From: Rhodospirillales bacterium CG15_BIG_FIL_POST_REV_8_21_14_020_66_15
GTDB lineage: Bacteria > Pseudomonadota > Alphaproteobacteria > Rhodospirillales > Casp-alpha2
Direction: 5' to 3'
Assembly: GCA_002781745.1 (NCBI GenBank)
Contig: PFFW01000102.1
Span: forward strand, 1-64,000
Length of the DNA stretch: 64,000 nt
Position 1 is the first letter of the stretch, and each line of letters begins with the position of its first letter. The notes beneath the pieces were generated by a model. That model was not told where the DNA came from. It worked only from the letters and a program-made list of their open reading frames with translations, and ran no database searches. This document shows, piece after piece, positions 43,038-44,239 of the stretch. Position numbers and translations under genes: made by a program.

Positions 43038-43120
43038 CTATTGTCAGGGGCAACCGAAAAAATTGCAGGGGACGCATTTTGCCCGGCAACAAAGTATTCT
43101 TGAGTTGTTGTCCGCGTGTC

Positions 43121-43148
43121 GGGGGTTCGAGTCCCTATACCGCTACCA
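43121..43148 (+). other. tRNA 3'-end-like fragment (T-arm, acceptor 3' strand, CCA) without a 5' half
   Basis: GGGGG-TTCGAGT-CCCTA-TACCGCT-A-CCA; no AGCGGTA 5' acceptor or D-arm in the preceding ~80 nt. Confidence 0.45.
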
Positions 43149-43240
43149 TCGTTACCACCAACTCGGACGTCCATTTCCTATCCTCGCAAACGCCTACATG
43201 AACGGCAGGGTCATGAAGCTGAGCGTTGGAGAGATGGGGG

Positions 43241-43283
43241 CCTCATGCTTCGAGACGGCGCTGCGCGCCTCCTCAGCATGAGG
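43241..43283. repeat. palindrome resembling alphaproteobacterial REP-type intergenic repeat
   Basis: CCTCATGC-TTCGAGACGGCGCTGCGCGCCTCCTCA-GCATGAGG. Confidence 0.65.
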
Positions 43284-43309
43284 TCATATTTATAAACTCC
43301 TCGCCTCCC

Positions 43310-43342
43310 CCTGAGGAGGCGCCCCGGGGCGCCGTCTCGAAG
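43310..43342. repeat. second, inverted copy of the CTGAGGAGGCGC/CGTCTCGAAG repeat core
   Basis: CCTGAGGAGGCGCCCCGGGGCGCCGTCTCGAAG; reverse-complement related to 43249-43279. Confidence 0.65.
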
Positions 43343-43367
43343 GGCGAGGCGGAGGCGCAACAAACAA

Positions 43368-43430
43368 GGGGAAAAATTACCCCGGTTTTTCTTGACGCAA
43401 GGGCAATTTTTCCCCTATGTTTTTGCGTCA
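43368..43430 (+). promoter_or_regulatory. candidate sigma70-type promoter overlapped by two interleaved perfect inverted repeats
   Basis: -35 TTGACG (43392-43397), 18-nt spacer, -10 TATGTT (43416-43421); IRs GGGGAAAAATT/AATTTTTCCCC and TGACGCAA/TTGCGTCA. Confidence 0.6.
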
Positions 43431-43446
43431 CCGGCGGGACCGATGA

Positions 43447-43671
43447 ATGCCGACCCTCGCGACGTTTTCGACCTTCGTCATCCGCATGTATTTCGAGGAC
43501 CACAACCCGCCGCACGTCCACGTCGTCGGCCCGGAGTTCGCGGCGAAGGTGGTGATCGCGGACGGCCGCGTCATCCGGGGCGCCCTGCCGGCCCGCGCCG
43601 AACGCGAGGCGGCGGACTGGATCGCCGCCAACCGCGCCCTGCTGATGGCGAAGTGGGCGGAATTCCAATGA
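43447..43671 (+). CDS. DUF4160 family protein
   Basis: 'MPTLATFSTFVIRMYFEDHNPPHVHVVGPEFAAKVVIADGRVIRGALPARAEREAADWIAANRALLMAKWAEFQ'. Confidence 0.85.
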   Translation: MPTLATFSTFVIRMYFEDHNPPHVHVVGPEFAAKVVIADGRVIRGALPARAEREAADWIAANRALLMAKWAEFQ

Positions 43672-43708
43672 CCCGCCCGGCACCTCTCGTCGCCGAAAGG
43701 CCAGAACC

Positions 43709-44239
43709 ATGAACCAGATCGACACGCCGCTTCGCATCAAGTCCGTTTCCGCCGGCAAGGTGCCGCTGACCCTCGCCGTCGTGTGGACCGACGGCAGCCG
43801 CGACGTGGTCGATCTTTCCGGTCTGGTCGCGCGCTCCCGCCACTTCACGGTGTTCGCCGACGACCCCGAGGCCTTCGCCGACGTCGGCGTGGCCGACTGG
43901 GGCTACAGCGTCGAATGGGGCAACGGCCTCGACTGGCCGGCGCCCAACCTGAAGCGGCTGGCCGACGAGCAGCGCAGCGTGACCGGCGCCGACCTGGCGG
44001 CCTGGCAGGAGGGCGCCGGCCTGTCCAACCGGGAGGCCGCCGACGTCCTGGGTGTCGACCTCAAGACCGTGAAGAACTGGCGGGCCGCCGCATTCCGCGA
44101 CAAGCCCCTGCCCACGGCGGCGCAGTGGTCGATCCGCCATCTGACGCAGGAGCCCCTGGCCCTTATCGCCCACTACCGCCCGCGCCGCGCCGGCCGCCCG
44201 CGCAAGGCGGAGCGGGACAAGGGCAAGCGCACCGCCTGA
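43709..44239 (+). CDS. DUF2442 domain protein with C-terminal HTH-like region
   Basis: DUF2442-like N-terminus; 'GLSNREAADVLGVDLKTVKNWRAAAFRDKPLP' helix-turn-helix-like; basic tail. Confidence 0.8.
   Translation: MNQIDTPLRIKSVSAGKVPLTLAVVWTDGSRDVVDLSGLVARSRHFTVFADDPEAFADVGVADWGYSVEWGNGLDWPAPNLKRLADEQRSVTGADLAAWQEGAGLSNREAADVLGVDLKTVKNWRAAAFRDKPLPTAAQWSIRHLTQEPLALIAHYRPRRAGRPRKAERDKGKRTA

Follow-up and report, generated by a model that had tools for sequence, protein, structure and literature searches.

The gene pair and its putative toxin

Two short genes lie at positions 43,368 to 44,239 of a 64,000-nucleotide stretch of DNA from a Rhodospirillales bacterium (contig PFFW01000102.1), hereafter called the window, behind a promoter threaded by inverted repeats, and the question is what kind of module they form and which protein binds in front of them. 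The first-pass annotation had described a DUF4160-like open reading frame followed by a DUF2442-like one with a helix-turn-helix (HTH) region and a basic tail, which was confirmed, coordinates included (Table 1). The comparisons presented here suggest that the locus is in all likelihood a type II toxin-antitoxin module, DhiTA-like but of an HTH subtype, in which a DUF2442-HTH antitoxin would repress its own promoter.

Table 1 Features of the DUF4160/DUF2442-HTH locus, with positions in the window
Feature	Position	Strand	Basis or remark
Overall dyad of O1 and O2, 33-nt arms, 26 paired	43350..43433		
Candidate operator O1, GGGGAAAAATTACCC	43368..43382		before the -35 hexamer; 33 bp from O2, centre to centre
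-35 hexamer, TTGACG	43392..43397	+	
Candidate operator O2, GGGCAATTTTTCCCC	43401..43415		fills the -35/-10 spacer; PWM score, same place in relatives
-10 hexamer, TATGTT	43416..43421	+	
DUF4160 (DhiT-like) putative toxin, 74 aa	43447..43671	+	PF13711, NF048015, conserved residues, AlphaFold model
DUF2442-HTH putative antitoxin/repressor, 176 aa	43709..44239	+	Pfam; profile match to NE0471/2AUW
DUF2442 domain, residues 19-83	43763..43957	+	PF10387, below cut-off; presumed toxin-neutralising
HTH domain, residues ~92-150, recognition helix around GVDLKTVKNW	43982..44158	+	weak HTH matches, profile
Basic tail HYRPRRAGRPRKAERDKGKRTA, AT-hook-like GRP core	44171..44236	+	conserved in window subgroup (alignment)

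The predicted product of the first gene belongs to the DUF4160 family, with 68.9 bits against Pfam PF13711 (cut-off 23). Against the NCBIfam model for DhiT, NF048015, it scores 61 bits, the curated cut-off being 100, and it is therefore not classed as DhiT itself. Among the closest relatives of the putative toxin are those of loci L151 and L152, with 58 and 57 % identity. The putative toxin has a conserved DHxPPHxH motif, the obvious starting point in a search for its target; residues H23, H25, W58 and W70 are invariant in an alignment of 16 relatives.

An AlphaFold model of the putative toxin, made from eight sequences, has a pLDDT of 93 and consists of five strands and one long helix, and a Foldseek search of the PDB with this model returned nothing at E ≤ 0.001. 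Neither this model nor an earlier, poor single-sequence model gave a significant Foldseek match in the PDB or in a viral library, and comparison with PDB chains by sequence and by profile gave nothing beyond chance. The modelled fold matches none among the solved structures. Resemblance to the fold of RNase toxins such as RelE, BrnT or HicA did not emerge from the same PDB search. In the PHROGs search the putative toxin matched one unnamed family only, and the defence-system library contained no match to either protein.

The genes are on the same strand, toxin first, with a gap of 37 nt and the DUF2442 partner downstream. In 387 genomes from the class Alphaproteobacteria there are 48 DUF4160 loci, and at 45 of these a DUF2442-like gene, or one like the window antitoxin, is located directly downstream on the same strand, so that the adjacency, which the first-pass annotation had proposed to check, is indeed conserved. 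In one genome contig (G262 C67, 150-4046), five DUF4160/DUF2442 pairs occur in tandem within 4 kb.

The earlier suspicion that such pairs are toxin-antitoxin-like was right in kind. The label of an uncharacterised module did not hold, as pairs of this composition have already been tested experimentally in Dickeya (dhiTA; PMC8198452) and Thermus (PMC12724237), and the module is consequently of a known kind. In Thermus, plasmids with the toxin gene but lacking the DUF2442 gene cannot be introduced, the second ORF being required to tolerate the first, and the plasmid-borne pair raises persistence and stabilises plasmids (PMC12724237). That the window pair is instead a non-toxic regulatory or housekeeping module, or a decayed toxin-antitoxin pair, is unlikely: in E. 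coli the pair from Thermus was without effect (PMC12724237) and an HTH-DUF2442 gene of Polymorphobacter has no annotated toxin beside it, but both ORFs of the window are intact, its toxin retains all of the invariant DUF4160 residues, and DhiT of Dickeya inhibits both E. coli and Dickeya (PMC8198452).

The putative antitoxin

The product of the second gene scores 19.9 bits against PF10387 (DUF2442), under the curated cut-off of 23.9, and gives several weak HTH matches in Pfam at residues ~100-130. Of the 13 partner proteins that were aligned, 12 match PF10387, and a profile of 13 DUF2442-HTH partners matches NE0471 (PDB 2AUW) across both domains with an E value of 1.2e-33. An XRE-like HTH follows DUF2442 in a subset of partner proteins, and the window antitoxin, in which the two are fused, is of this NE0471-like type. 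It is not of the short DhiA type (~80-90 aa, without HTH), having 176 aa, an HTH and a basic tail. In Thermus a 92-aa protein consisting of DUF2442 alone is able to neutralise (PMC12724237), and by analogy the HTH is most plausibly an extra part for DNA binding. The tail motif YRP..GRP is common to the antitoxins of the window subgroup in the alignment, and by inspection only it appears AT-hook-like. A scan of the genome contigs with the antitoxin as query gave no matches.

Several variants of the antitoxin were observed. The Polymorphobacter gene mentioned above (plasmid p29362-2, 1150-1635; L143) lacks both an annotated DUF4160 neighbour and an operator-like site, and is possibly an orphan antitoxin. 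In G443 (contig C286, 538-974) the DUF2442 and HTH parts are two separate, overlapping matches, possibly representing a split antitoxin. A DUF2442 protein of Deinococcus proteolyticus (pDEIPR04, 1473-1979; L150) carries a different HTH-like C-terminus, apparently acquired independently, and has no operator of the motif described below.

Promoter and candidate operators

The promoter TTGACG-N18-TATGTT (43392-43421) is present upstream of the pair, as first annotated, and is the sole match in 1.5 kb, 0.2 being expected. The two interleaved perfect inverted repeats reported across it are both in the sequence, but their interpretation stands only in part. A larger dyad, 43350-43382/43401-43433, is built around the 11-nt repeat and pairs at 26 of 33 positions, a value reached by none of 1000 dinucleotide shuffles. 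The 8-nt repeat, TGACGCAA/TTGCGTCA, has a comparable counterpart in 12 % of shuffles, and nothing resembling it stood out in the upstream regions of relatives; it is therefore probably incidental, and as a second operator it was ruled out on its chance-level frequency.

The long repeat contains two copies of a near-palindrome of ~15 bp, GGGSAA-NNN-TTSCCC, here called O1 and O2, neither of which is perfect. On a PWM whose training sites excluded the window, O2 scores 14.4 bits (p 0.002 against shuffles) and O1 only 3.7 bits. As the paired-site layout recurs in relatives, two palindromic operators are the best interpretation of the long inverted repeat. Exact matches to the motif in the window's own genome are confined to these two sites, which fits a local autoregulator. 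When up to two mismatches were allowed there were 10 matches, compared with 10 for a reversed-pattern control, and no regulon is therefore claimed. Rfam gave only sub-threshold chance matches in the upstream region.

The candidate operator in relatives

In the 100 nt upstream of the toxin gene in relatives from the class, the palindrome GTGCAA-N3-TTGCAC is found at HTH-type loci, where it is the common operator form and occupies the same -35/-10 spacer as O2 in the window. The PWM was built from ten class-locus sites, excluding the window, and the test set consisted of loci from a search of the phylum Pseudomonadota and named plasmids, none of them used in training, plus the window. At a threshold of 10 bits, chosen after the scores were known, a site was present in 13 of the 21 test loci (window included), in 0 of 17 HTH-less loci and in 29 of 4200 shuffled sequences (0.7 %); the other eight test loci had no recognisable site of this motif. 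What is conserved upstream, a check proposed in the first-pass annotation, is a spacer palindrome of the same format. Perfect 6+N3+6 palindromes, counted without reference to the motif, were found at 13 of 31 HTH-type and none of 17 HTH-less loci, the loci being partly non-independent (L133-135, L136/137, L112/113 and G350/G272 are close relatives). Three further Sphingobium plasmids scored 26-27 bits, with identical arms (TAGTGCAA/TTGCACTA) and different centres.

At 26 loci the proximal site directly follows a -35-like hexamer, and its end is overlapped by a -10-like hexamer; the hexamers are spaced 17 bp apart in most of these loci and 18 in the window. The hexamers match the -35/-10 consensus at a mean of 8.1 of 12 positions, compared with 5.7 for randomly placed controls (sd 0.26; highest value in 300 draws, 6.6). 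The two-site layout is found in G002 (32 bp), L109, L112, L113 (30), L119 (32) and L133-L135 (31). It is probable in L151 and L152, in which paired sites of other letters lie 31 and 32 bp apart, several of these sites being weakly symmetric. L154, a near relative, has one clear site only, and many relatives have a single site, in the promoter spacer. In Azospirillum (L136/L137) the format is the same with other letters, CACCCAA-N3-TTGGGG, and a second palindrome is 22 bp away.

Alternatively, as in the first-pass annotation, the dyad could be a single operator whose half-sites lie far apart, with the 8-nt repeat forming another operator interleaved with it. Both repeats are perfect in sequence, but the 15-nt arms are near-palindromes in their own right, in a format found singly in relatives, many of which have only the one spacer site, and the 8-nt repeat is at chance level; this arrangement is accordingly given little credence.

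The probable operator-binding protein

The proposal that the DUF2442-HTH protein is the operator-binding partner is supported by the comparative evidence, which singles out this antitoxin as the probable binder of O1 and O2: the palindromes accompany only HTH-type pairs, and their letters track the recognition helix. Across 20 loci, the distances between operator half-sites and those between recognition helices correlate with r 0.70. The correlation persists when the DUF2442 domain is accounted for (partial Mantel r 0.69, p 0.0001), whereas that of operator with DUF2442 domain given the helix is -0.05; for these values the operator sites were chosen partly by palindromicity and some of the loci are closely related.

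Binding of O1 and O2 by some other repressor of the host, rather than by the pair's own HTH protein, is improbable, since the sites are absent at all 17 HTH-less pairs, the operator letters follow the antitoxin helix, and the palindrome pattern recurs on plasmids of several genera.

Upstream surroundings

A tRNA-Met-like 3' end lacking its 5' half lies some 300 nt ahead of the pair (43111-43148); over the last 38 nt it agrees at 35 positions with an intact tRNA-Met(CAT) on contig C188. It looks like an integration scar, and no second copy of it was found. Between this fragment and the pair, at 43240-43350, is an interspersed palindromic repeat with 44-nt arms (CTTCGAGACGGCGC...), REP/BIME-like, with 15 BLAST matches in its own genome (both orientations, itself included). 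The reading of the dyad as a terminator or RNA hairpin of the upstream gene, or as part of this adjoining repeat, is very improbable: a T-rich stretch does follow the dyad, but the dyad was not picked by the terminator scan, the interspersed repeat stops at 43350, ahead of O1 and O2, and spacer sites of the same format occur in relatives whose upstream sequence is unrelated.

Proposed mechanism and significance

Sequence comparison makes it very probable that the pair shuts off its own expression. The DUF4160 protein would act as the toxin and the DUF2442 domain would neutralise it, and the added XRE-like HTH would let the antitoxin dimer, or the toxin-antitoxin complex, bind the two palindromic operators. 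Occupation of O2 in the -35/-10 spacer would block RNA polymerase and repress the operon, and O1 and O2, about three helical turns apart, may be bound cooperatively. What sequence comparison establishes is the pairing of the genes and an operator that lies within the promoter, is confined to HTH-type loci and covaries with the recognition helix; toxicity, neutralisation, repression and cooperative two-site binding are predicted by analogy with relatives.

A broader proposal, for which the case is evenly balanced, is that HTH-bearing DUF2442 antitoxins form a natural repressor family in which recognition helix and spacer operator, the latter often doubled, co-evolve as the format is kept, namely N6-N3-N6 in a 17-bp spacer with a second copy about three turns upstream. 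In the window subgroup the AT-hook-like tail would add minor-groove contacts to A/T tracts of the operator, and the toxin would have a fold unrepresented among solved structures.

The DUF4160/DUF2442 family is widespread yet thinly studied, and an HTH subtype of it is now defined. The toxin-antitoxin kind was known; the conserved operator of the HTH variant is apparently undescribed within the literature searched. The exact operators predicted here are open to a single EMSA or reporter experiment, and the covariation of helix and operator provides a set of related repressors for following specificity drift under a fixed promoter architecture.

Comparison with known systems

The dhiTA operon of Dickeya dadantii 3937 has the same gene order and the same two domains as the window pair. 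It is a toxin-first, autoregulated toxin-antitoxin operon in which the antitoxin represses the promoter by about 50 %, and the complex to a greater extent (PMC8198452). The window pair differs in that its toxin is under the NCBIfam DhiT cut-off and its antitoxin has an HTH. DhiA proper probably lacks one, because the L159 toxin, which passes the DhiT cut-off, is paired with an 80-aa DUF2442 protein without HTH.

The Thermus module likewise has DUF4160 followed by DUF2442, but its antitoxin is of 92 aa and DUF2442 only, compared with 176 aa and an HTH in the window, and the region upstream of a Thermus plasmid pair contains no palindrome of the window type. Partners encoded on plasmids of Thermus, Francisella, Legionella, Thiobacillus and Thiomicrorhabdus are 84-105 aa long and without HTH.

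The XRE-like HTH of the window antitoxin resembles that of the anti-CRISPR repressors Aca1, Aca2 and Aca10, of which Aca10 binds as dimers to palindromes inside promoters (PMC9410881). The Aca proteins differ in having no DUF2442 fusion, and in their operon partner and operator sequence.

NE0471 of Nitrosomonas europaea combines DUF2442 and HTH over the same length as the window antitoxin, with a recognition helix of the SRRMVSYY type where the window has DLKTVKNW. Its structure, 2AUW, is listed as unpublished, with no function or operator given (PMC9410881), and the present comparison assigns it a likely role.
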